A stretch of DNA of 64,000 nucleotides from Terriglobia bacterium. GTDB lineage: Bacteria > Acidobacteriota > Terriglobia > Terriglobales > Acidobacteriaceae. Of the stretch, positions 7,856-34,326 are shown in pieces; position 1 is the first letter of the stretch; each line of letters opens with the position of its first letter. The DNA is taken from the NCBI GenBank assembly GCA_020072645.1, contig JAIQGK010000003.1:496001-560000 (forward strand), written 5' to 3'. Both the position numbers and the translations under genes were made by a program. Below the pieces are notes generated by a model that worked only from the letters and a program-made list of their open reading frames with translations, was not told the DNA's origin and ran no database searches.

Positions 7856-10393
7856 ATGTTGCCAGACAATCATGAGGCGAACGACCTCGGTGGCGGACTC
7901 TGGTGGGACAATCTCCTAAGGGACCTTCGCTATGCATTGCGAATGCTGCGTAATGCTCCTGGTTTTACTATCATTGCGGTGCTGACGGTTGCTCTAGGAA
8001 TTGCAGCGACGACGGCCATTTTTAGTATAGTGGATGCTACGCTGTTGCATCCACTGCCGTACCCCCAGCCTGACCAACTCGTACGCATCCAGGATGATCT
8101 TCCAGGTGTAGGCAGCCACGATGTCGGGATGTCAATCCCGGAGGTGTGGGATTTTCAGCGTTCCGGTATTTTTCAATGGATTTCACCGGATGTGTTCGAT
8201 GAATGCAATCTAACAGGCTCAGATCAGCCTACGTTGGCCAAATCAGTCGTTGTTATGCCGAGTTTTTTCACCCTGCTGGGCGTCAAACCGCAGCTGGGCC
8301 GCATCTTCGATCCTAACGACCCAACACCTGGATTTAATCTCGAAGCTGTCATGAGTGACGGATTATGGAAGCGGGCGTTTGGGAGTGATCCTCATATTCT
8401 GGGCAAAACCATACGGGCCGACAACGACTCATATCAGATCGTTGGCGTCATGCCACCTGGTTTTCACAATCCCGGAGGAACACCAGCCGAGAGAAATGCG
8501 GAACTTTTTTTTGCAGGGGGCTTCGCAGGTCCACCATTCCTTCCAAGCAATAGTACTCCGGGGCGAGATAGTCACTGGCCTGGAGTTATTGCGCGACTTA
8601 AACCTGGACTCACGGTTGCAGAGGCCCAGAGCCGGGTAGATGCGCTGGTCGCATCCTTGCAGAAACAATTTCCCAAAGATTATCCGGCGCAAGCTGCATG
8701 GAAGGTGCGATTGGTGCCGCTCAAAGAAGTCATGGTCGGTGATGTCCGCCGCCCGGTGCTTCTATTATTTGGCGCCGTGGGATTGGTCCTGCTGATCGGC
8801 TGCGTGAACGTCGCTAATCTCCTGTTGGCGCGGGCCAGCGCGAGAGGACGAGAAATGGCCATTCGCCAGGCGCTCGGCGCCGCGCGCAGGCAGTTGGTGC
8901 GTCAATTACTGACGGAAAGTTTGGTTCTCTCCCTGCTTGGCGGAACAGCGGGTTTAGCAATTCTCTTCTTCGCCAGAAGATTTCTCTTGCGACTGGTCCC
9001 CGACAATCTGCCGCAGCTCAATGAGATATCCATTGGCTGGAGCGTTTTGCTTTTTGCCCTCGGCGCCTCTCTTCTTACGGGTGTACTTTTCGGCCTGGCT
9101 CCCGCTCTGCATGCCGGTAAGTTGAGCTTGATTCATGTGCTCAAACAGGAAGGGCGCGGCTCAAGCGGTTCCGACAGACAGGTGCGCACGCGCCGCCTGC
9201 TTGTGATATCAGAGTTCGCTCTTTCGTTGGTGTTAATGATTGCTGCGAGCCTTCTGCTGCACAGTTTCTGGGACTTGCTCAATGTGCGGCTCGGATTCAA
9301 TCCCCAGAGCGTCATGATGATACGGATGAGGCTGCCTTCTCCAAATGACCCCAAGGCCGACCTCTACGGAACTCCTGCGCTGGAGACGCCGTTCTTGCAA
9401 GAAATACTTCGTCGTAGTAGGGCCCTACCGGGGGTCGAAGAAGCGGCCATCGGAAATAAGGCTGCGGTTCCCCTGGGTCACGATCAAAGGGACCTAAGTG
9501 TGTTCCGTGTGATTTTTGAAGGACGCGGAACGCAGACTACCAATAATGATGCTCCTTTGGTCAATGCGGCGAGGGTTACGCCGGAATATTTTCACCTGAT
9601 GGGTATGACGCTGCTGCGCGGCCGTTTATTCACTGACTTGGATTATGACACGGCGCCTTCAGTGACCCTGATCAATGAGGCAATGGCCAAGACTTATTGG
9701 CCCAATGAAGATGCTTTAGGAAAACGAGTGAAGTTTACTCGGGCGTCGTCTCCCTGGACCACGGTGATCGGCATTGTCGCGGATGCGCGGACAGAATCGG
9801 TGGAGAGCGCAAACGTTCCACAAGTATATGCCCCTCTGTACCAGCGGGGCGAACACCATCTGGCAATATTTTTGCGCGGACGTCTGGACACTGCTGCCAT
9901 TCCTGGGCAAGTTCGCCAACTGGTGCAGTCGGTGAACCCCGAGCTCCCCATTTACGCAGCTGAGACACTGAATGAAGTCGTGTCCGATTCTCTCGCTGTG
10001 CGGCGGTTCTCGATGGAAATCATTGCCTTATTTGCCTTGACGGCGCTGCTTCTTGCCGGGTTGGGTATTTATGGGGTGATCTCGTACATCGTGAGTGAAC
10101 GTACACACGAGATCGGCATCTACTTTGCACTGGGGGCGCAACAAGGAAAGGTCTTGAAGATGGTTCTGCGTCAGGGACTGACCCTGGCGATTGTGGGTGC
10201 TGCTGTTGGACTGGTCGTTGCGCTGATGGTGTCGCACTTGATGGCCGGCCTACTTTATGGCGTGCGGCCTGCCGATCCAGTCATATTTATCGGAGTTACG
10301 ACCGTGCTTACGTTGGTCGCGTTCGCGGCGTGTTATCTCCCCGCCCGGCGTGCGATTCGCGTTGATCCGATCATGGCTCTTCGCAACGAATAA
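7856..10393 (+). CDS. ADOP-family MacB/FtsX-type permease
   Basis: An 845-aa permease without an ATPase domain. One membrane segment lies near residues 40-60, followed by a MacB-type periplasmic domain, then three TM segments of the first FtsX domain ([20 protein letters not shown]). A second MacB/FtsX unit repeats this and ends [16 protein letters not shown] and [16 protein letters not shown]. This duplicated layout with no cognate ATPase matches the acidobacterial duplicated orphan permease family; its substrate is unknown. I chose ATG 7856 because GAGGTG lies at a suitable distance before it; a TTG at 7826 in the same frame has no ribosome site. A related gene faces it at 13824-16283. Confidence 0.88.
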
Positions 10394-10631
10394 GATTGAT
10401 GGGACGAACATTCTTGGATGCCAGCTATGACTTTTACCAGGGACGGGATTTGCCATTTAACGCGAGACCCAACTCGATTCTAAGTTGGCGTACCAGTTCT
10501 AGAATCACCGTGGTTTAATGCCTCAGAGCTCGGTTTTTCTGGGACCTTCAGGAGCGGGAGATGCAAACCTGGTTAAAGAAAACCTGGTCGCATGATACGC
10601 TAACACGAATCAAAATTAAGGAGAGTCACCG

Positions 10632-11228
10632 ATGAAGCGAATACGGACCTTCCTCCTGCTTGTAGCCATCCTTACGCTGGCCGGCTTGGTGCACAATATC
10701 GAGGGCAGCGCCGCGGCGCAGTCGCAATCGGCGCAACCCACCTTAGCTTCCATGGTGGAACGCCAGCTCAGCGATACCGAAAAGGAAGTGGTGGACGCTG
10801 CCGAAGCAATGCCGGAAGATAAATTTAACTTCTCTCCTGAAAGTTTGAACATTGCCGGGAGTGAATACAAGGGCGTGCGTACATTTGCCCAGCAAGTTAA
10901 GCATATTGCCGCTTCAAACTATTTTCTGTGGGCAACAGTAACTGGCGATAAGACACCAGAGGTTTTCAATGATGGGAAGGGTCCGGACAACCTGAAGACC
11001 AAAGCCGATATTATCAAGTTCCTGAAAGAGTCTTTTGCTTTCGCTCGCAAGGCTGCCGCTACATTGACGGACCAGAACATGTTACAGCCTTTGGGAAACA
11101 GCAAGTCGCTTCGCCTCTCCCGGGCCGAATTCGCCGTCAGCCACTCCTTCGACCATTATGGACAGATGGTTGAGTATCTACGGATGAATGGAATCGTGCC
11201 ACCAGCCAGCCGGCGATCGTCGAATTAA
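10632..11228 (+). CDS. Secreted DinB-like protein
   Basis: A 198-aa protein with a signal peptide (about residues 1-30, ending near SAAAQ) and a helical body resembling the DinB/YfiT four-helix bundle. Three His in typical places (QVKHIAA, SHSFDHYGQMVEYLR) could bind a metal. DinB-like proteins include thiol-dependent transferases, such as the bacillithiol transferase BstA. With a YpdA-like gene elsewhere in the window a thiol link is possible but unproven, and export argues for a different role. AAGGAGA stands nine bases before the ATG. Confidence 0.75.
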   Translation: MKRIRTFLLLVAILTLAGLVHNIEGSAAAQSQSAQPTLASMVERQLSDTEKEVVDAAEAMPEDKFNFSPESLNIAGSEYKGVRTFAQQVKHIAASNYFLWATVTGDKTPEVFNDGKGPDNLKTKADIIKFLKESFAFARKAAATLTDQNMLQPLGNSKSLRLSRAEFAVSHSFDHYGQMVEYLRMNGIVPPASRRSSN

Positions 11229-22590: not shown

Positions 22591-24594
22591 ATGAGCAAGA
22601 AGTTTGGCGCGCAAGCAGCGCATATGCTTTTTGGAAAAATCGATGACATGCTGGAACGCGTGTCCTTTGGTATTGAGAAGGCGCGCGACTATCTCTTTGC
22701 GCAGCAGCATGAAGATGGCTATTGGTGCGGTGAACTGGAAGCCGATACCACGCTTGAGTCGGACTACATTGCCATTCACACCTTGCTCGGCACCGGCAAT
22801 CCGGGCCGCATGCAACGCGCAGTGCCGGAAATCATCCGCCACCAGAATGCGGACGGTGGCTGGCCCATTTACACGGGCGGGCCTTCGAATATCAGTGCCT
22901 CAGTAAAGGCTTACTTTGCGTTGAAGCTGATGGGCTACAAGCCTGACCATCCTGTGCTGGAGCGGGCGCGCACCAGAATTTTGGAAATGGGCGGCGCCAC
23001 GGAGTGCAACACCTTTACCAAGATTTATCTGTGCTTCCTTGGCCAGTATGACTGGGAAGCCGTTCCGGCTGTTCCACCGGAAATAGTGCTCTTTCCCAAC
23101 TGGTTCTGGTTCAACCTGTATGAGATTTCGTCATGGTCGCGGGCCATTCTGGTGCCGCTATCCATCGCCTATGCCAAGAAGCCGCTGAAGAAGATTCCGG
23201 CAGAAATGGGAATCGACGAGCTGTTTGTGGGCGGACGCCACGGAAAGCACCTGCACCTGAAGTGGACCGCCAAGAAGATTTCCTGGAGAAACTTCTTCCT
23301 GGTGCTGAACCGCGTCGTCCATTTCTGCGAGCGGTTCCACATTCGGCCGTTGCGCTATCTGGCGCTGAAGAAAGCCGAACGCTGGATGCTGGAGCGCTTT
23401 GAAAAATCAGACGGGCTGGGCGCAATCTATCCCGGCATTTTAAACTCCATTGTCGCGCTGCGCTGCCTGGGCTATTCCACCGATGATCCGCAGGTGATCC
23501 GAGCACTGAGCGAGTTTGAGAAGCTGGGCATTGATGAACCCGGTATTGCTGATCATTCGGAACCCACATTCCGCATGCAGCCCTGCATGTCTCCCGTGTG
23601 GGACACGGCTCTGGCGATGTTCGCGCTGGGAGAAAGCGGCGTCTCAAAAAACGATCCACGGATGCTGAAAGCGGCTGACTGGATTCTGAGCAAGGAAGTT
23701 CGCACCAAAGGCGATTGGGCCGTGAAGGCTCCAAACGTTGATCCAGGTGGCTGGTACTTTGAGTTCAATAATGAGTTTTATCCTGACGTGGACGATTCAG
23801 CCATGGTGCTGTTAGGGCTGGATAAAGTAGAGAATCCGCGTGAGCGCTATCAGCATGAAGTCAGCCAGCGCGCCATCGACTGGATTTTTGCCATGCAGTG
23901 CAAGAGTGGCGGTTGGGCATCATTCGACAAAGACAATACGCGCATGGTGTTCCAGAATATTCCTTTTGCCGACCACAACGCCATGCTCGATCCGCCGACG
24001 GTGGACATCACTGGCCGCGTGCTGGAGATGCTGGCGGCGTACGGTGTAACAGGTGACGACAAGCGCGTAAAGAAAGCGATCAAGTTCATCTTGAGCGAAC
24101 AGGAGCCCGATGGCTCGTGGTTTGGGCGCTGGGGCGTGAACTACATTTATGGAACCATGCTGGTGCTGCGCGGCTTGCAGGCCATGGGTGTGGACCATCA
24201 CGAGCCGTACGTGCAGCAGGGCGCGGAATGGCTGCGCATGGTGCAGAACTCTGACGGCGGTTGGGGCGAGACTTGTGGCTCGTATGACGATCCCACCACG
24301 CGCGGCATTGGTCCCAGCACGCCTTCACAAACTGCCTGGGCCATTATGGGTTTGCTGGCGGCGGGTGATACACGCAGTGAATCCGTGCAGCGCGGAATTC
24401 TTTACCTGCTGGAAACGCAGCGGCCTGATGGACACTGGAACGAAGATCATTACACGGGCACGGGCTTTCCACGAGTTTTTTATCTGGCCTACCATCTGTA
24501 TCGCGACTACTTCCCGCTGATTGCGCTGTCAACGTACGCGCGTGATTTCTCAGCGTTGTATGAAGAGGGAAGTGTCGGGTACGCGAGAGGCTGA
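22591..24594 (+). CDS. shc: Squalene-hopene cyclase
   Basis: A 667-aa class II triterpene cyclase that turns squalene into hopene or hopanol at the membrane. The catalytic acid motif is DVDDSA (family consensus DXDDTA; T to S here). Several QW repeats are visible (QHEDGYWCGEL, QNADGGW, QCKSGGWASFDKD, QEPDGSWFGRWG, QNSDGGWGE, QRPDGHWNED). The length is normal for the family. ATG 22591 lies four bases after ispH; a longer frame upstream would overlap ispH and is rejected. It forms the core of the hopanoid cluster. Confidence 0.95.
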   Translation: MSKKFGAQAAHMLFGKIDDMLERVSFGIEKARDYLFAQQHEDGYWCGELEADTTLESDYIAIHTLLGTGNPGRMQRAVPEIIRHQNADGGWPIYTGGPSNISASVKAYFALKLMGYKPDHPVLERARTRILEMGGATECNTFTKIYLCFLGQYDWEAVPAVPPEIVLFPNWFWFNLYEISSWSRAILVPLSIAYAKKPLKKIPAEMGIDELFVGGRHGKHLHLKWTAKKISWRNFFLVLNRVVHFCERFHIRPLRYLALKKAERWMLERFEKSDGLGAIYPGILNSIVALRCLGYSTDDPQVIRALSEFEKLGIDEPGIADHSEPTFRMQPCMSPVWDTALAMFALGESGVSKNDPRMLKAADWILSKEVRTKGDWAVKAPNVDPGGWYFEFNNEFYPDVDDSAMVLLGLDKVENPRERYQHEVSQRAIDWIFAMQCKSGGWASFDKDNTRMVFQNIPFADHNAMLDPPTVDITGRVLEMLAAYGVTGDDKRVKKAIKFILSEQEPDGSWFGRWGVNYIYGTMLVLRGLQAMGVDHHEPYVQQGAEWLRMVQNSDGGWGETCGSYDDPTTRGIGPSTPSQTAWAIMGLLAAGDTRSESVQRGILYLLETQRPDGHWNEDHYTGTGFPRVFYLAYHLYRDYFPLIALSTYARDFSALYEEGSVGYARG

Positions 24595-24825: not shown

Positions 24826-25953
24826 TTGCCGGTACCAATTTCACAGATGTGGACAGTGGCGAGCTATGTTGTTAAACAAAAGCTGGCCAGACGCAAGCGC
24901 TATCCGCTGGTGCTGATGCTGGAGCCGCTCTTTCGCTGTAACCTGGCGTGCGCGGGCTGCGGCAAAATTCAGTATCCCGCGCACATCCTGAAAAAAGAGC
25001 TCACGCCGGAACAGTGCTTCCGCGCGGTGGATGAGTGCGGCGCCCCGATGGTCTCAATACCTGGCGGCGAGCCACTGATGCACTCGCAGATTGGCCAGAT
25101 CGTTGAAGGGCTAGTGGCGCGCCAGAAATATATCTATCTCTGCACTAATGCGCTGCTGCTCAAGGAAAAGCTTGATCTGTTCAAGCCCAGTAAGTATCTG
25201 ACGTTTTCTGTCCACGTAGATGGCGAACGCGAGCACCACGATTTCTCTGTCTGCCGCGAAGGCGGGTACGACCTGGCCATAGAGGGAATGAAAGAAGCGC
25301 TGCGGCGCGGCTTCCGCGTGACGACGAATACCACATTGTTCGACGGCGCGGATCCTAATAGTGTGCGCGAACATTTTGACCAGATGATGGAACTCGGAGT
25401 CGAAGGCATGATGCTTTCGCCTGGATATTCTTACGACAAAGCGCCGGACCAGAAGCACTTTCTGGGTCGGGCGCGCACGCGCAAGTTGTTTCGCGCCATC
25501 CTGTCAAACCGCAAGAAGAGCTGGCAGTTCAATCAGTCGCCGCTCTTCCTGGAATTCCTGATGGGCGAACGCCAGTATGCGTGCACTCCCTGGGGCATGC
25601 CCACCTACAACATCTTTGGCTGGCAGAAGCCGTGCTACCTGCTTCAGGACGGCTACGCCGATACATTCCAGGAATTGATGGACAGCACGGCATGGCATGA
25701 GTACGGAACGGAGTCAGGAAATCCGAAGTGCGCGAATTGCATGGTGCACAGCGGGTATGAGGCTTCTGCGGTTAATGAAACGTTCAGCTCATTGCGCGGC
25801 CTGCTGGCCACGGCAAAAGCCACGCTCTTCACGAGCCACAAAGATGAACACGCATTGAAGCTATTGAGCGAGCATGTGCGGCCGGTGCACAGTTACAACC
25901 CCCTGGTGCAAATCGAGGAATCGTCCAACCAGCTTGAGGAGACCAGTGCATGA
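24826..25953 (+). CDS. hpnH: Hopanoid radical SAM protein HpnH
   Basis: A 375-aa radical SAM enzyme that joins the 5'-deoxyadenosyl group to diploptene to give adenosylhopane, the first side-chain step. The cluster motif is C-N-L-A-C-A-G-C (CxxxCxxC), with [16 protein letters not shown] context, and GGEPLMH follows. The start is TTG 24826, with AAGGGGAGA upstream, giving [16 protein letters not shown] as in other HpnH. The next gene starts inside its stop (ATGA), so translation is coupled. Confidence 0.95.
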
Positions 25954-26378
25954 CGGAGTCAGTTCCGAACAATGCTGTTAAAGCGGCTGACTCGCTCGAA
26001 GTCGCACCGGGGTTCAAGCATGAAAAGCTGGAAGGCTGGGTGCCGGAGCTGGCCGGTGAAGAAGAAGTTCGGCAGGCTCTTGAGAAGGCCTTCGATTACC
26101 GCGGTGACGTGACAATCACGCGCAAAGACGGCAGCAAGGTTGAAGGATACATTTTTGATCGGCGTACCGGTAAAACGCTGAGCGATTCCGCGGTACGGTT
26201 GTTCCCTAAAGATGCGGACCAGAAAATATCCATTCCATATTCAGAGATTGCCGCGCTGGCCTTCAGCGGGCGCGATACCGCCGCGGGAAAAAGTTTCGAA
26301 GCCTGGGTGCGCAAGTACTGGGAAAAGAAAGCTGCCGGTGAGAAGAATATAGGGATACAGGCGGAAGCGCTGGAGTAG
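25950..26378 (+). CDS. Uncharacterised 142-aa protein coupled to HpnH
   Basis: A soluble 142-aa protein whose ATG overlaps the hpnH stop by 4 bp. Residues 20-50 look helical and acidic ([16 protein letters not shown]). A beta-rich middle follows ([20 protein letters not shown]) and then [20 protein letters not shown]. The charged C-terminal helix reads [17 protein letters not shown]. The [13 protein letters not shown] pattern recalls small Sm-like barrel proteins, but I cannot name a family. Its tight coupling to hpnH suggests a hopanoid-linked role such as adaptor or regulator, which is inference. Confidence 0.75.
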
Positions 26379-27164: not shown

Positions 27165-28184
27165 ATGAAGGCCTTCATCACAGGAGCTACGGGATTTGTC
27201 GGCAGCCACGTGGCGCGCGCTTTAGCTGCGCAAGGCGCTGAACTGCGATTGCTCGTTCGTCCAACCAGCCGTCTCGATAATATTGCCGATTTGCGGGCAG
27301 AAACCGCTACGGGCGACCTTCGCAATCCTGAGTCGCTCAAGAAGGCGATGGCCGGCTGTGAGTTTGTGTTTCACGTGGCTGCCGATTACCGGCTGTGGGT
27401 TCGCGACCCGGAGCAGATGTATCTCTCGAATGTGGAAGGCACGCGGACGATTATTCAGGCTGCGCAAGAAAGCGGCGTGCGTCGCGTGATCTATACCAGT
27501 TCTGTGGCGACGATGGGTTTTACCCGCGATGGGCATATTGCAGGAGAAGACTCGCCGGTTTCTATCAAAGATATGGTGGGGCATTACAAGCGGTCAAAGT
27601 TCATGGCAGAGCAGATTGCTCTGGAAGCCGGCAACAAAGGCGCAAATGTCGTAGTGGTGAATCCCACGACGCCGATTGGCGAGTACGACATTAAGCCAAC
27701 GCCGACCGGAAGGATCGTGGTCGACTTTCTTAAGCGGAAATTTCCTGCCTATGTCGATACGGGCTTAAATCTGGCAGACGTGAAGGAAGTTGCGCGCGGA
27801 CACCTGCTGGCGATGGAAAAAGCGCGGCCAGGACAGCGTTACATTCTGGGCGGAGAGAACCTGACGTTAAAGCACATCCTGGACAAACTGGCATTGCTCA
27901 CCGGTCTGCCTGCCCCGACGATGAAAGTGCCGCATGCTGTCGCGATGGGATTTGCCGTCTTCGACCAGTTCTTTACCGGCACGATCCTGGGCAAAGAGCC
28001 TCGCGCCACTATTGACGCAGTGAAGATGGGCCGCAAGAAAATGTTTGCTTCATCGGCAAAGGCTGAGCTTGAGTTGGGCTACAAAATTCTGCCAGTCGAA
28101 GATGCGCTGCGGCGCGCGATCAACTGGTTCCAGGCGCACGGATACGTTGAATCTCCCGTGCAGGTTGCAACGGTGAACGCATGA
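27165..28184 (+). CDS. hpnA: Hopanoid-associated sugar epimerase/dehydrogenase HpnA
   Basis: A 339-aa extended SDR protein. The nucleotide-binding motif GATGFVGSHVARAL is at the N terminus; the catalytic region has TSSVATMG and YKRSK (YxxxK). HpnA occurs in hopanoid clusters and resembles dihydroflavonol reductases and sugar epimerases; its exact substrate is not firmly established. ATG 27165 yields MKAFITGATG; an in-frame upstream start at 27090 would overlap the Doc gene. Its stop overlaps hpnG by 4 bp (ATGA). Confidence 0.92.
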   Translation: MKAFITGATGFVGSHVARALAAQGAELRLLVRPTSRLDNIADLRAETATGDLRNPESLKKAMAGCEFVFHVAADYRLWVRDPEQMYLSNVEGTRTIIQAAQESGVRRVIYTSSVATMGFTRDGHIAGEDSPVSIKDMVGHYKRSKFMAEQIALEAGNKGANVVVVNPTTPIGEYDIKPTPTGRIVVDFLKRKFPAYVDTGLNLADVKEVARGHLLAMEKARPGQRYILGGENLTLKHILDKLALLTGLPAPTMKVPHAVAMGFAVFDQFFTGTILGKEPRATIDAVKMGRKKMFASSAKAELELGYKILPVEDALRRAINWFQAHGYVESPVQVATVNA

Positions 28185-28927
28185 GCAAGATCGCAATCAT
28201 TGCGGCCATGGAACGGGAAATCGCACCATTGGTGCGCGGCTGGCAGCGCGAACCGCTCTCTTCCGGCGAAAGAAAGTTCGTAGTCTTTGAACGCGATGGA
28301 GTAGTCGCGGTGGTGTCCGGAATCGGCTGCAAGAACGCCGAAGTGGCGGCCCGGGCGGTACTGACGCAATATCAACCGTCGCTCCTGATTTCAGCGGGCC
28401 TGGCAGGCGCGCTGATACGGAGCCTGAAAGTCGCGAGTGTTTTTACGCCGAGCGTGGTCGTGGATGCGGTTGACGGCGCCGAATATCGATGCGCGGCGGA
28501 TCCCAACCACGTGAGCGGTGGCGTGCTCGCCACAGCGCCCGGAATTGCAGGAACTGAAGCCAAGAGAGAACTGGTAAATCGATTTCATGGGTTGGTCGTC
28601 GATATGGAAGCTGCCGGCGTGGCCCGAGTGGCGCAGCAGGAGCAAGTCGGGTTTCGCTGTGTGAAAGCCATCTCTGATGAAGCTGATTTTGTGATGCCGC
28701 CGATGGGAAAATTTCTAAATACTGCTGGAGAGTTTCAGAGCGGCAAGTTCGCGTTGTGGGCTGCTCTGCGGCCATGGCAGTGGGCAAGGGTTGCGGCTCT
28801 GGCGCGAAACAGCAAGCATGCCACAGACGCACTTTGTAACCGCTTGCGGAACGACATCGCGAGCACATTGCCGCCAAAGGAAGTTGTTACACTGAATAGA
28901 GTAGAGTTCCTGGAAGTGAAACGTTAG
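28181..28927 (+). CDS. hpnG: Hopanoid-associated nucleosidase/phosphorylase HpnG
   Basis: A 248-aa member of the MTA/SAH nucleosidase-like family. It begins MSKIAIIAAMEREIAPLV and has the conserved VVDMEAAGVARVA and KAISDEADF motifs. HpnG removes adenine from adenosylhopane to give ribosylhopane or its phosphate, in the cytosol or at the membrane surface. Its start is inside the hpnA stop, and the next gene starts three bases after its stop, so it belongs to a tight operon. Confidence 0.9.
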   Translation: MSKIAIIAAMEREIAPLVRGWQREPLSSGERKFVVFERDGVVAVVSGIGCKNAEVAARAVLTQYQPSLLISAGLAGALIRSLKVASVFTPSVVVDAVDGAEYRCAADPNHVSGGVLATAPGIAGTEAKRELVNRFHGLVVDMEAAGVARVAQQEQVGFRCVKAISDEADFVMPPMGKFLNTAGEFQSGKFALWAALRPWQWARVAALARNSKHATDALCNRLRNDIASTLPPKEVVTLNRVEFLEVKR

Positions 28928-28930
28928 ATC

Positions 28931-30052
28931 ATGCATACGGCTATCAAATCCGAATCCGTGGAAGGAAAACTCACTCCCACACGAATGATGCGAGCTGCTG
29001 TCTATCGCGGCAAAAACGATGTCCGGTTGGAGACGGTCCCTGTACCGGAAATCGGTAAGGGAGAGTTGCTGGTACGTGTACACACCTGCGGCATTTGCGG
29101 TACTGATCTAAAAAAAATTCTGACTGGATCGCATTCCGCTCCTCGTATTTTCGGGCACGAGATGGCCGGGCAGGTGGTTGCAATCGCTGAAGGCGTAAAG
29201 AACTTTTTTCCCGGCGACCGCGTGATGGTGTTCCATCACATTCCCTGCGGCGAGTGCTATTACTGCCGGAAAAAAGTTTTTGCGCAATGTCCTGTTTATA
29301 AACAGGTCGGCGCGACCGCTGGATTTGAGCCCAGCGGCGGTGGTTTTGCCGAATACATTCGCGTGATGGACTGGATCGTACGCAAGGGCGTGGTGAAAAT
29401 CCCCGACCATGTTTCGTATGAACAAGCTTCATTTATCGAACCAGTAAATACGTGCCTGAAAGCAATTGAATTGTTACAGCTGCAAAGTGATGAAACGGTG
29501 TTGGTTATCGGCCAGGGGCCCATTGGGATCATTTTGGCGGCATTGGCCAAACGGACGGGTGCGACCGTAGTAACTTCCGATTTGTATCCCCAACGCCTTA
29601 AAATAAGTGAAAGCTTCGGGTTAAAGCACAATGTGAATGCAGGGTCGGAAGATCCGGCGCAACGGGTTAGGGACCTTACTGACGGGCGCGGAGCAGACGC
29701 TGTGATCCTGGCGACGGCGGGAAATAGTTTGATAAAGCCCGCCATGGATGCCACTAGGCCAGGCGGAAGGATCATGCTGTTTGCGCAGACGCAGCGGAGC
29801 GAAGTCGCAATCGATCCTGCTGCTGTTTGCATGGATGAAAAAATGCTGGTGGGCTCATATAGTGCATCAGTCGATTTGCAGGACGAGAATGTGCGTCTGG
29901 TATTCAGCGGAGAAATTGATTTCGAGCGGTTGATCTCGCACCGGTTTCCTCTAGATAAATCCGTAGAGGCGATCCAGTTGGCTTCACATCCGTCGCCGGA
30001 ATCAATGAAGATCGTTATTCAGCCCGGTTTGGAATGGGAGAAACATATTTGA
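28931..30052 (+). CDS. Zinc-dependent MDR dehydrogenase in the hopanoid operon, copy 1
   Basis: A 373-aa medium-chain dehydrogenase/reductase. The catalytic zinc site has CGICGTDLKK and GHEMAGQVV, the structural zinc four Cys in CGECYYCRKKVFAQC, and the Rossmann motif is GQGPIGII. It resembles sorbitol/threonine dehydrogenases that oxidise polyols or reduce sugars. It lies three bases after hpnG and eight bases before a second MDR gene. From the position I infer a role in reducing ribosylhopane to bacteriohopanetetrol or in another side-chain step; the sequence itself does not fix the substrate. A Leu-rich polyol-type active site cannot be judged by eye. Confidence 0.88.
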   Translation: MHTAIKSESVEGKLTPTRMMRAAVYRGKNDVRLETVPVPEIGKGELLVRVHTCGICGTDLKKILTGSHSAPRIFGHEMAGQVVAIAEGVKNFFPGDRVMVFHHIPCGECYYCRKKVFAQCPVYKQVGATAGFEPSGGGFAEYIRVMDWIVRKGVVKIPDHVSYEQASFIEPVNTCLKAIELLQLQSDETVLVIGQGPIGIILAALAKRTGATVVTSDLYPQRLKISESFGLKHNVNAGSEDPAQRVRDLTDGRGADAVILATAGNSLIKPAMDATRPGGRIMLFAQTQRSEVAIDPAAVCMDEKMLVGSYSASVDLQDENVRLVFSGEIDFERLISHRFPLDKSVEAIQLASHPSPESMKIVIQPGLEWEKHI

Positions 30053-30060
30053 AAGGACAA

Positions 30061-31095
30061 ATGACAGCCGCGGTCCTCTATGGCAAGGAGGACATCAAGA
30101 TTGAAAAAGTGCCTATTCCCGCGCTCGAACCCGGCGAGGTGCTGGTGAAGGTGAATGTGGCGCTTACCTGCGGGACTGATCTCAAGGTTTATCAGCGCGG
30201 CTACCATGCCCGCATGATTGTTCCGCCGGCACTGTTTGGCCATGAGCTTTCCGGCGTAATTGAAGAAGTTGGGCCAGGCGTGCGCGACTTCCGCCGCGGC
30301 ATGAAAGTTGTTGCCCTGAACTCCGCTCCATGCGGCGCGTGCTTTTATTGCCTGAAGCATCAGGAGAACATCTGCGAAGATCTTTTGTTCAACAACGGCG
30401 CATATGCGGAATACATAAAGATCCCGCGCCGCATTGTTGAAACCAACATGCTGGCGCTACCGGATGACCTGAGTTTTGAGTCGGCAGCGATGACTGAGCC
30501 GCTGGCCTGCGCCTTGCGCGGCTTGCAGGAAACTGGAGCGGACATCGGCGACACAGTGACTGTGATCGGCGCGGGCCCATTGGGATTGATGCTTGTGCAG
30601 GTGGCCAAACTGACGGGATGCAAAGTCATCGCCGTGGTAAAACGCGCTGAGCAGGTGACGGCTGCAAAAAGATTTGGGGCGGATGAAGTGGTGCAGATCG
30701 GGAAGCATCATGACCCCATTGACCGCGTGATCGGAGTTACTGAAGGCCGTGGATCAGATATTGTGATTGAAGCCGTGGGCCGGCCGCAAACGTGGCAGTG
30801 GGCGGTGGAAATGGTCCGTCGCGGCGGCGTGGTGAATTTCTTTGGCGGATGCGCCAGCGGGACGAAAGTCGAACTGGATACAAACCGGCTGCACTATTCT
30901 GAAATCACGCTGAAAGCCACGTTCCACCACACCCCGCAAACAGTCCGCAAGGCGTTTTCACTGATTGCGGAAAAGAACGTGAAGAGCACAGACTATGTTA
31001 CTGGCGAGGCGCCTCTCTCCAAACTGAAGCAAGTCCTGCAACAGATGCTGGACCGCGGGAGCCAGATTAAAACGGCCATCATTCCCGGCCACTGA
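30061..31095 (+). CDS. Zinc-dependent MDR dehydrogenase in the hopanoid operon, copy 2
   Basis: A 344-aa MDR paralogue of the previous gene. Catalytic zinc residues are in CGTDLKVYQRG and GHELSGVIEEV, the structural zinc Cys are in CGACFYCLKHQENIC, and the NAD-binding motif is GAGPLGLM. I chose ATG 30061, giving MTAAVLYGKED with AAAGGA upstream. An in-frame ATG at 30034 would overlap the previous gene by 19 bp. The two bases before hpnC link it to squalene synthesis. Two consecutive MDR genes, not close copies, suggest a two-step or heteromeric reaction; this is inference. Confidence 0.88.
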   Translation: MTAAVLYGKEDIKIEKVPIPALEPGEVLVKVNVALTCGTDLKVYQRGYHARMIVPPALFGHELSGVIEEVGPGVRDFRRGMKVVALNSAPCGACFYCLKHQENICEDLLFNNGAYAEYIKIPRRIVETNMLALPDDLSFESAAMTEPLACALRGLQETGADIGDTVTVIGAGPLGLMLVQVAKLTGCKVIAVVKRAEQVTAAKRFGADEVVQIGKHHDPIDRVIGVTEGRGSDIVIEAVGRPQTWQWAVEMVRRGGVVNFFGGCASGTKVELDTNRLHYSEITLKATFHHTPQTVRKAFSLIAEKNVKSTDYVTGEAPLSKLKQVLQQMLDRGSQIKTAIIPGH

Positions 31096-31097
31096 TC

Positions 31098-32030
31098 ATG
31101 TCAGTATCGCGCACAAGCACTTCGTCCATGCCGCTGGGGTGGAATGCGCTGCCGGAATCGTATCGCATTCCGGCCACCGCGCCTTCGCTGGACGAAGCGC
31201 GTGCGTATTGCGAGCGGCTGGCGAAATCGCATTATGAAAATTTTTCGGTTGCCACGTGGTTCCTGCCCAGCCGCCTGCGCCAGCATTTTTACAATGTTTA
31301 CGCCTACTGCAGAATCTCTGACGATCTGGGCGACGAAGTGGGTGATCCGCAGCAGTCTCTGGAATTGCTGGACCAGTGGGAGGCAGAATTAAATGCCTGC
31401 TATGCGGGATCGCCAAAGCATCCCGTGTTTGTTGCGCTGGGTGACACAGTGAAGCAATTCAGCATCCCACAGCACGAGTTTTCTGATTTGCTGATCGCGT
31501 TCCGGCAGGACCAGACCGTCACACGTTTTGAGACGTTTGACGACATTCTTGCTTACTGCCGTTATTCAGCAAATCCGGTCGGCCATCTGGTCCTTTATCT
31601 TTGCGGCTATAGTGACGCCGAACGGCAGCAACTTTCCGACTACACCTGCACCGCGCTGCAATTAGCGAATTTTTGGCAGGACGTTTCTGTTGATTATGGC
31701 AAAGGCCGCATTTACCTTCCGCTGGAAGACCTGCGCCGCTTTGGCGTAACTGGTGAGGACATTGCGCAGCGCCGCGCAACACCGCAATTTGTGGCCATGA
31801 TGAAATTTGAAGTCGAGCGGGCGCGGGATTGGTTTGCTCGTGGACTGCCGCTGGTAAAAATGGTCAATCGCGAACTGGCGGTCGATCTGGAATTGTTCAG
31901 CCGGGGCGGCCAAGAGATACTGAATGCCATAGAGCGCCAGGACTTTGACGTGTTGCGGGCTCGTCCGGAGATTTCGAAAACGCGCAAACTGATGCTGGTG
32001 TTTCGCGCGGCCATGGGCAAGCTTCTGTGA
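31098..32030 (+). CDS. hpnC: Squalene synthase HpnC
   Basis: A 310-aa trans-isoprenyl diphosphate synthase-like protein. The first acidic motif is SDDLGDEVGD and the second NFWQDVSVDYGKGR. In the three-enzyme route HpnD makes presqualene diphosphate, HpnC converts it to hydroxysqualene and HpnE reduces that to squalene. It starts two bases after the MDR gene, and hpnD starts inside its stop (GTGA). Confidence 0.92.
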   Translation: MSVSRTSTSSMPLGWNALPESYRIPATAPSLDEARAYCERLAKSHYENFSVATWFLPSRLRQHFYNVYAYCRISDDLGDEVGDPQQSLELLDQWEAELNACYAGSPKHPVFVALGDTVKQFSIPQHEFSDLLIAFRQDQTVTRFETFDDILAYCRYSANPVGHLVLYLCGYSDAERQQLSDYTCTALQLANFWQDVSVDYGKGRIYLPLEDLRRFGVTGEDIAQRRATPQFVAMMKFEVERARDWFARGLPLVKMVNRELAVDLELFSRGGQEILNAIERQDFDVLRARPEISKTRKLMLVFRAAMGKLL

Positions 32031-32929
32031 GCGACCAGCTCAGCCATGCCTACGCAGTCTGCCGCGGCATTTCACGCCGTGCGGCCAAGAATTTCTATTA
32101 CGGCTTTATGGTGCTGCCATCAGAAAAGCGCAACGCGCTGAGCGCGGTGTACGCATTCATGCGCCACGCCGACGATATCTCAGACGAACCCGGAGTTGAC
32201 CCACAAATAAAGCGCCAGAAGTTGAGTGAATGGCTGGATGCAGCAAAAGCGGTCTTTGCAGGCAAGGCAACCGATGATCCGGTTCTGATGGCGCTGGGTG
32301 ACGCGCAGAAGAAATTCAAGATTTCGCCGGAGCTTTTTGAAAAGTTGGTTTACGGCACCAGCCTGGATCTGGATATCCCGCCCGCATCAGCAGAATCGCC
32401 GGCCATCCTATGCGAAACGTTCGAAGACCTGAAGCAGTATTGCTATTACGTCGCGTCTGTCGTCGGGCTGGTATGCATACGTATTTTTGGCTATCAGGAC
32501 ACCAAGGCGGAATTTCTGGCGGAAGACTGCGGCTTGGCATTCCAGTTGACCAATATTATTCGCGACATAAAAGAAGACGCATCCATGGGTCGCATTTATA
32601 TTCCTGCGGAAGATCTGGTGCGCAGCAATCTTACGGCCGCAAATTTCTCTTCGAACGTGTTGCGGGATCCGGCACAGGCGCAGCAACTGCGGCCTGCCCT
32701 GGAATACGAAGCTGAGCGCGCGAGGAAATATTATGAATCGGCAAAGTGGCTGATGGAGCTGATTGATGAAGACAGCCGGGCCGCCTTATGGGTCCTGGTG
32801 GAAATATATAGCCGCCTGCTGCAGAAGATCACAGATCGCAATTACGATGTGCTTACAGAGCGCGTCAGGCTGACGCTCTGGGAAAAATTGAAAGTATTAT
32901 CACGCGGATTTCTACTCCGCATCGCATGA
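32027..32929 (+). CDS. hpnD: Presqualene diphosphate synthase HpnD
   Basis: A 300-aa relative of squalene/phytoene synthases with Asp-rich motifs MRHADDISDE and NIIRDIKEDASMGR. It condenses two farnesyl diphosphates to presqualene diphosphate. The GTG start overlaps hpnC, and hpnE starts in its stop codon (ATGA). The length is normal. Confidence 0.92.
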   Translation: MSDQLSHAYAVCRGISRRAAKNFYYGFMVLPSEKRNALSAVYAFMRHADDISDEPGVDPQIKRQKLSEWLDAAKAVFAGKATDDPVLMALGDAQKKFKISPELFEKLVYGTSLDLDIPPASAESPAILCETFEDLKQYCYYVASVVGLVCIRIFGYQDTKAEFLAEDCGLAFQLTNIIRDIKEDASMGRIYIPAEDLVRSNLTAANFSSNVLRDPAQAQQLRPALEYEAERARKYYESAKWLMELIDEDSRAALWVLVEIYSRLLQKITDRNYDVLTERVRLTLWEKLKVLSRGFLLRIA

Positions 32930-34326
32930 CGTCCGACACTCGGCAATATAGTGTAGCTATCGTGGGCGGTGGACTTGCCGGCCTGGCAGCAGCCTGCGCG
33001 CTGGCCGAAGCCGGATTACGCGTCAGTGTTTTTGAGCGCAGGCCCTACGTTGGAGGTCGGGCTTCGTCTTACGAGCACCCGGGAACGGGCGAGGTGGTGG
33101 ATAACTGCCAGCATGTGCTGCTTGGCTGCTGCACGAACCTGATTAATTTTTACGATCGCCTGGGCGTGAGTGGGAAGATCCGGTGGTTTGATGAACTGAC
33201 ATTCATCGAGCCCGGCGGTCGCGCCAGCAGAATGGCGCCGTCATTTTTTCCTGCTCCAATGCACAACATTCCAACGTTTCTCGGCGCCAAGATGCTGAGT
33301 GCCAGTGACAAAATTGCGATCTCCCGGGCCATGGCGGTGATGAGCCACGGCCTGCCGGAGGATTCATCGGAAGACTTTCTTTCATGGTTGCAGCGACACA
33401 AGCAGACTGAACAGGCGATTGAGCGGTTCTGGAAGACTGTATTGGTAAGCGCGCTGAATGAAGATCTTGATCGCATCTCAGTGCGCTATGCTACGCAGGT
33501 TTTTCGGGAATCATTCATGAAGTCTGCCGCGGCCGGCAGGATGGGACTGCCAAGCATCCCTCTCTCGGATTTGTACGGAAAGGCGATTGACTATATACGT
33601 GCTAGAAACGGGCAGGTTCTGCTGCGGTCGTCGGTGACTGCAATCGGACCGAAAGAGGATCGAGTGGGAGTATTAACCAGTTCGGGCGAGCAGCAGTTTG
33701 ATTTTGTTGTCTTGGCCGCGCCTTTTCAAAACGTGGCAAGCCTCCTGCCGTGTGACGAATCTGCCGAGCCAATCAAGCAGCAACTGGCGAAGTTTGAGCC
33801 GTCATCGATTACGGGAATTCACCTGTGGTTTGACCGCGAGATCACGCCTCTGCCACATGCGGTACTGCTGGACCGCACGATTCAATGGATGTTTCATAAG
33901 TCAAAATTTCATGAAGGCCGGCAAAACGCTGGTCAAGGCAGCTATGTCGAGTTGGTGGTAAGCGCGTCAAAATCATTGGTGCAGAAGTCGCGCGAAGAAA
34001 TCCTCGAACTGGCAACGCGCGAGCTGGCTGAGTTCTTTCCCGCGGTGCGCGAGGCGAAGCTGGTGAAATCCACGGTGATCAAAGAAATTTATGCCACCTA
34101 TGCAATTCTCCCCGGGCTGGACAAGTTCCGTCCGGCGGCAAAAACACAATGGCCGCAAGTCTTCCTGGCGGGCGATTGGACGGCGACTGGCTGGCCTGCA
34201 ACCATGGAAGGCGCGGTTCGTAGCGGATATCTTGCGGCTGAAGCATTGATGAAAAGCGTTGGACAAGAACAGATGTTTGTTGTCGCCGACTTGCCGGCGA
34301 CCGGATTTATGAAGCTGTTTTGGTAA
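32926..34326 (+). CDS. hpnE: FAD-dependent hydroxysqualene reductase HpnE
   Basis: A 466-aa flavoprotein of the carotenoid desaturase-like group. The dinucleotide motif is VGGGLAGLAAACALAEAG, followed by FERRPYVGGRASSYE, with a C-terminal FAD-closing segment FLAGDWTATGWPATMEGAVR. It completes squalene synthesis. It overlaps hpnD by 4 bp and ends the cluster; a long gap and terminators follow. Confidence 0.93.
   Translation: MTSDTRQYSVAIVGGGLAGLAAACALAEAGLRVSVFERRPYVGGRASSYEHPGTGEVVDNCQHVLLGCCTNLINFYDRLGVSGKIRWFDELTFIEPGGRASRMAPSFFPAPMHNIPTFLGAKMLSASDKIAISRAMAVMSHGLPEDSSEDFLSWLQRHKQTEQAIERFWKTVLVSALNEDLDRISVRYATQVFRESFMKSAAAGRMGLPSIPLSDLYGKAIDYIRARNGQVLLRSSVTAIGPKEDRVGVLTSSGEQQFDFVVLAAPFQNVASLLPCDESAEPIKQQLAKFEPSSITGIHLWFDREITPLPHAVLLDRTIQWMFHKSKFHEGRQNAGQGSYVELVVSASKSLVQKSREEILELATRELAEFFPAVREAKLVKSTVIKEIYATYAILPGLDKFRPAAKTQWPQVFLAGDWTATGWPATMEGAVRSGYLAAEALMKSVGQEQMFVVADLPATGFMKLFW

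Follow-up and report, generated by a model that had tools for sequence, protein, structure and literature searches.

Within the 64,000-nucleotide stretch of Terriglobia DNA analysed here (the window), two adjacent genes encoding zinc-dependent MDR oxidoreductases, MDR1 and MDR2, were found between an hpnG-like gene and hpnC of a hopanoid cluster. New here are the conserved and, as read from the sequences, opposite cofactor signatures of this old tandem, together with the co-occurrence of MDR1 and hpnH in Acidobacteriota and, independently of it, in Armatimonadota. We tentatively propose, as a reading that falls somewhat short of an even chance, that MDR1 and MDR2 form a lineage-restricted pair of soluble zinc oxidoreductases of the polyol/sugar type that would have the C5 polyol tail of hopanoids as their target, MDR2 acting in the reducing and MDR1 in the oxidising direction.

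Gene order and published hopanoid clusters

All the genes of the cluster are located on the + strand. Neighbouring genes were scored against NCBIfam cut-offs, and domains were assigned using Pfam gathering scores. The genes shc (squalene-hopene cyclase, 22591..24594), hpnH (adenosylhopane synthase, a radical SAM enzyme, 24826..25953), hpnA (an SDR "sugar epimerase", 27165..28184), and hpnC (31098..32030) scored 753, 549, 497, and 360 bits against TIGR01507, TIGR03470, TIGR03466, and TIGR03464, respectively, all over the cut-offs, and the hpnD (32027..32929) and hpnE (32926..34326) ORFs were assigned by their position and by homology in related loci. MDR1 (28931..30052), the conserved core of which begins at 28988, and MDR2 (30061..31095) are separated from the upstream hpnG-like gene (28181..28927), from each other, and from hpnC by 3, 8, and 2 bp, respectively, and the coordinates thus confirm the tight packing described in the first-pass annotation. 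The mechanical ORF of MDR2 opens at 30034; its start was taken as 30061, yielding the 8-bp gap, because an ATG conserved in the family is present at this position with GAAAGGA just 5' of it. On the 3' side of hpnH, ug3 (25950..26378; name from PMC5462960) encodes a conserved 142-aa protein for which no Pfam family was matched. It recurs 3' of hpnH in many Terriglobia loci, and the copy in genome G007 is 55% identical.

The HpnG family (TIGR03468) was the top match of the nucleoside phosphorylase encoded upstream of MDR1, with a score of 86 bits that is below the cut-off of 187. The other HpnG matches in Acidobacteriota were also below this cut-off, those linked to clusters scoring approximately 71–117 bits, compared with 224 for the HpnG of Methylobacterium. 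The position of the gene in the window argues for an HpnG function despite its score, and automatic annotation will miss such proteins, as their scores are far below the cut-off.

Hopanoid clusters of Acidobacteria were previously described by Sinninghe Damsté (2017; PMC5462960) as cluster A (ug2-hpnC-hpnD-hpnE), cluster B (ispA-shc-hpnH-ug3), and cluster C (hpnA-hpnG-ug1). In that report, ug2 is a Zn-binding alcohol dehydrogenase of ~350 aa that every SD1 and SD3 species possesses, but that C. thermophilum (Chloracidobacterium) lacks. The gene positions of ug1 and ug2 are identical to those of our pair, and we equate MDR1 with ug1 and MDR2 with ug2 by gene position rather than by accession. 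The linkage of the MDR genes to hopanoid genes is real, yet already published in outline. However, the text of PMC5462960 leaves ug1 undescribed, gives no function for ug1 or ug2, mentions neither their pairing nor their cofactor types, and does not report them from Armatimonadota, UBP4, or genomes devoid of hopanoid genes. The same authors proposed HpnA for the ribosylhopane step, and the enzyme converting ribosylhopane to bacteriohopanetetrol (BHT) was still unassigned in 2025 (PMC12583986), in line with what the first-pass annotation had stated. Our literature search for a named ribosylhopane reductase or for an MDR adjoining hpnG found none.

Protein features and predicted cofactors

MDR1 and MDR2 matched ADH_N (GroES-like, PF08240) and ADH_zinc_N (PF00107) above gathering scores. 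Each protein contains four structural cysteines, a catalytic Cys/His-Glu/Glu set, and a GxGPxG motif, which bears out the intact zinc sites and the Rossmann motif initially reported from the window. The zinc ligands of MDR1 (C37, H57-E58, and E151) and its C87/C90/C93/C101 residues were invariant among 28 MDR1 sequences, as were C37, H61-E62, E146, and C91/C94/C97/C105 among 26 MDR2 sequences. AlphaFold models (pLDDT of 93.9 for MDR1 and 93.2 for MDR2) predicted folds with TM scores of 0.85–0.90 to 4cpd, 1e3j, and others, the nearest structures being thermophilic alcohol, butanediol, ketose/sorbitol/polyol, and threonine dehydrogenases. Domains, zinc ligands, and fold place both proteins in the zinc-dependent MDR superfamily. 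They are only 30% identical to each other, and their clear divergence, already noted in the first reading, is therefore well founded.

In MDR enzymes, the cofactor preference can be read from the residue at the end of Rossmann strand beta-2, an acidic residue being the usual sign of NAD(H), and Val or Gly followed by basic residues that of NADP(H). At this position, 100 of the 101 MDR1 orthologues carry Asp and one carries Glu, whereas MDR2 has Val/Gly followed by Lys/Arg and then Arg (Gly-Arg-Arg in most of the Armatimonadota sequences read), and only 3 of its 100 sequences are acidic here. We thus read MDR1 as a putative NAD(H)-dependent enzyme and MDR2 as a putative NADP(H)-dependent enzyme.

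L-threonine 3-dehydrogenase (TIGR00692) was the top NCBIfam family for both proteins and shares their domain plan and zinc sites, but the scores obtained (176 and 172 bits) are far below its cut-off of 458. Polyol/ketose dehydrogenases (the ketose reductase 1e3j and sorbitol, xylitol, arabinitol, and butanediol dehydrogenases) were among the nearest solved structures by both sequence and fold and share NAD- or NADP-type Rossmann signatures with the pair, at approximately 25–30% identity. The Phe-Arg-Tyr stretch in the substrate loop of 1e3j, whose Arg-Tyr we take to be polyol-binding, aligns with Ser-Ala-Ser in MDR1, in a region where the alignment is weak, and a nearly invariant Phe-His-His-Thr-Pro is found in the corresponding region of MDR2. 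A relative of MDR2 (44% identical) is encoded on a Rhodococcus plasmid beside genes for a DeoR regulator, a class II aldolase, and an FGGY kinase, a neighbourhood that by analogy points to sugar/polyol substrates.

In a tree of 79 sequences, MDR1 and MDR2 fell into separate clades, and both clades also contained tandem cousins from other acidobacterial families. For this reason, the tandem looks older than its hopanoid linkage, unless several lines have lost this linkage. The tandem cousins of families f44, f42, f29, and f57 fell outside the hopanoid-linked clades and were rejected as group members; those of f44 and f42 also deviate in the NADP signature. The f44 cousin pair is located near a P5C dehydrogenase-like gene, named by eye from its sequence. 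Distant tandem cousins were also present in the hopanoid-free genomes G070 and G117.

Distribution with and without hopanoid genes

The survey of Acidobacteriota comprised 159 genomes that were at least 90% complete. MDR1 orthologues, defined by at least 50% identity, were detected in 26 of them, the next identities dropping to 39% with a clear gap, and all 26 genomes also carried MDR2. Forty-four genomes contained hpnH, namely 25 of the 26 MDR1 carriers versus 19 of the 133 others (Fisher 3e-16, a value that ignores shared ancestry). The lone hpnH-negative carrier, G100, is 93% complete and has shc and hpnA. Nineteen of the 44 hpnH-positive genomes had no MDR1 orthologue, so no general step requires MDR1. 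These included three Chloracidobacterium-like genomes, which had only an MDR2-like protein that was just 46% identical, and shc-hpnH-hpnA-hpnG clusters devoid of any MDR were found in several families.

A scan of named loci, with one genome per species, returned at least 80 loci with the closest MDR1 relatives. Among the 80 matches listed, further hpn genes were present in the same stretch in 71, a co-directional hpnG just upstream in 53 (MDR1 adjoins hpnG in the Granulicella and Edaphobacter loci), and MDR1 and MDR2 were adjacent in 74. The gap was exactly 8 bp in 42 of these 74 listed pairs, and such recurrence indicates that the spacing is not due to chance. Where the cluster is split, MDR1 remains with hpnG and MDR2 remains beside hpnC. 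The listed loci that had no other hpn genes in the same stretch were six of Vicinamibacteria type, one from Armatimonadota (Chthonomonadales), and two others.

Among 151 Armatimonadota genomes, MDR1 orthologues (at least 41% identity, next best 37%) were found in 17 and hpnH in 30, with hpnH present in 14 of the 17 MDR1 carriers versus 16 of the 134 others (Fisher 4e-9). The pair and hpnH were on separate contigs or far apart in these genomes, so that they co-occur without close linkage. The order MDR1-MDR2-hpnC-hpnD-hpnE was observed in 4 of the 12 Armatimonadota stretches read and also in UBP4. The shc gene was found in 12 of the 16 MDR1-carrying Armatimonadota searched, and some of its absences are probably assembly gaps, since G318 has hpnH but no shc. 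The co-directional clusters and the co-occurrence with hpnH in two phyla uphold the functional link to C35 hopanoid genes suggested by the first-pass annotation. No MDR was present in the four hpn loci read from Burkholderia, Mycetohabitans, Methylobacterium, and Streptomyces, and a search of 72,556 plasmid and chromid records (31 with hpnH), which covers replicons other than the main chromosomes of these hosts, gave only distant matches to MDR1 and MDR2 in Rhodococcus and Metabacillus.

It had been expected that BHT producers keep the pair and that non-producers lack it. This fits well within Terriglobia, but overall the presence of the pair does not follow BHT production, as Chloracidobacterium-like genomes lack MDR1 and hopanoid-free Vicinamibacteria-type genomes carry both genes. 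Six such Vicinamibacteria-type genomes possess the pair but neither shc, nor hpnH, nor an hpnA above the cut-off, and hpnC/hpnD are also absent in three of the six. These are MAGs of unstated completeness, but assembly gaps would be an unlikely cause of an absence shared by all six. A coherent pathway was sought among the conserved neighbours of the pair in these genomes, and only proline dehydrogenase and housekeeping genes were found; at L054 and L152-L154, the pair is directly 3' of a proline dehydrogenase-like gene, named by eye.

In family f26, the order is hpnA-MDR1-MDR2-hpnD with no recognisable HpnG, and MDR1 directly follows hpnA in its loci (L052-L058 except L054 and L055; L184, L191, L224, and L227). 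The nucleoside phosphorylase-type matches of f26 are unlinked and resemble MTAN or futalosine hydrolase instead of HpnG, so that the enzyme releasing adenine from adenosylhopane in this family is in question. The idea that the pair substitutes for HpnG was rejected, as one of these unlinked proteins could serve instead.

Candidate roles on the hopanoid tail and incomplete clusters

The conversion of ribosylhopane to BHT is a core step for a lipid family whose fossils inform Earth history, and the pair represents two concrete candidate enzymes in cultured soil bacteria, each with a predicted cofactor. The ribose-derived C5 tail of ribosylhopane and BHT is a substrate of the sugar/polyol type, and both MDRs would most likely act on it. 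MDR2 would reduce a carbonyl, for which the C35 aldehyde of open-chain ribosylhopane is the best candidate, and in our best reading of the sequences it is the better candidate of the pair for NADPH-dependent reduction of ribosylhopane. Since this reduction needs one NADPH enzyme, the adjoining NAD enzyme suggests a second, oxidising step, and MDR1 may run in this direction on a hydroxyl or hemiacetal of the tail, a direction and division of labour that we infer. This module would span Acidobacteriota (Terriglobia and relatives), some Armatimonadota, and UBP4; even if the tail is indeed the target of the pair, a different solution must exist in other phyla. The two enzymes might also form a stereo-inverting couple, in which a hydroxyl of BHT or ribosylhopane would be oxidised to a ketone and re-reduced from the opposite face to yield a tail isomer such as 34R-type BHT. 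We consider such a couple improbable; if true, enzymes would provide a route to the kind of hopanoid tail isomers that serve as environmental biomarkers. Several observations count against a redox pair acting on the tail, namely its presence in Vicinamibacteria-type genomes devoid of shc, hpnH, and bona fide hpnA, a cross-phylum linkage to hpnC-D-E that is at least as strong as that to hpnG, and the involvement of two enzymes where ribosylhopane to BHT requires one reduction.

One or both MDRs could simply be a lineage-specific ribosylhopane reductase producing BHT, replaced otherwise in other phyla. The linkage and the zinc MDR chemistry invoked for this candidate in the first-pass annotation stood: the pair adjoins hpnG and co-occurs with hpnH, MDR2 has an NADPH-type signature, and the step has no assigned enzyme (PMC12583986). 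As a general reductase, it conflicts with the many hpnG- and hpnH-containing genomes that lack the pair, genomes with shc-hpnH-hpnA-hpnG and no pair being common. Furthermore, Chloracidobacterium, which produces BHT and BHT cyclitol ether (PMC5462960), likely corresponds to the genomes with no MDR1 and an MDR2-like protein of low identity, and the pair exists in hopanoid-free genomes, making a strict reductase role possible but doubtful. HpnA (TIGR03466), earlier proposed for the same step, also has an NAD(P)-binding oxidoreductase fold and is encoded in the same clusters, but it belongs to the SDR family, has no zinc, and co-occurs more widely with hpnH. The hpnA gene adjoins hpnH in most Acidobacteriota clusters and in the majority of the hpnH loci examined from Armatimonadota, whether or not the pair is present, and because it tracks hpnH more tightly than the pair does, HpnA still competes with the pair as a candidate reductase. 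HpnA could thus be the reductase wherever it is present, the pair adding a lineage-specific change such as oxidising a tail hydroxyl or inverting its configuration, which the opposite cofactor signatures would fit as an oxidise-then-reduce couple. This appears unlikely, given that 6 of 48 hpnH-positive alphaproteobacteria have no hpnA (PMC12583986), that hpnA is reportedly dispensable for BHT in Burkholderia cenocepacia (cited in PMC5462960), and that the literature consulted documents no unusual BHT isomer in Acidobacteria.

Genomes carrying the pair but no shc or hpnH, the distant cousins in G070 and G117, and the relative in a Rhodococcus sugar operon would agree with a general redox pair for small-molecule sugars or polyols, drawn into the hopanoid operon for regulation with no hopanoid substrate. 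We judge this quite unlikely in view of the repeated hpn linkage in three phyla and the co-occurrence with hpnH even where unlinked. A role in the metabolism of squalene or of other isoprenoids is highly improbable: MDR2 stays beside hpnC in split clusters, as in cluster A of PMC5462960, and MDR1-MDR2-hpnCDE occurs in genomes with no detectable shc or hpnH, but hpnC-D-E are already enough to make squalene (according to PMC5462960), three pair carriers have no hpnC/D, and MDR1 stays with hpnG when clusters are split. These likelihoods overlap and do not sum to one: the strict reductase role and that of HpnA combined with inversion either fall within the favoured reading of a polyol-type pair acting on the tail or can coexist with it.

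Some clusters of the survey were incomplete in other ways. G007 is 100% complete and has kept shc and hpnH, but hpnA, hpnG, MDR1, MDR2, and hpnC/D are missing; at L071 (G007:C102), transposase-like ORFs are found at 8945-10676, where hpnA-hpnG-MDR1-MDR2 would follow ug3. This genome was discarded as a natural co-loss experiment, as the lost genes are contiguous in relatives and the IS-like gene is near a contig end, pointing to one event or an assembly gap. In other hpnH-positive families (L067-L069), a ~330-aa protein with only weak local similarity to HpnD is encoded next to hpnG; it is perhaps a one-step squalene synthase that replaces hpnCDE.
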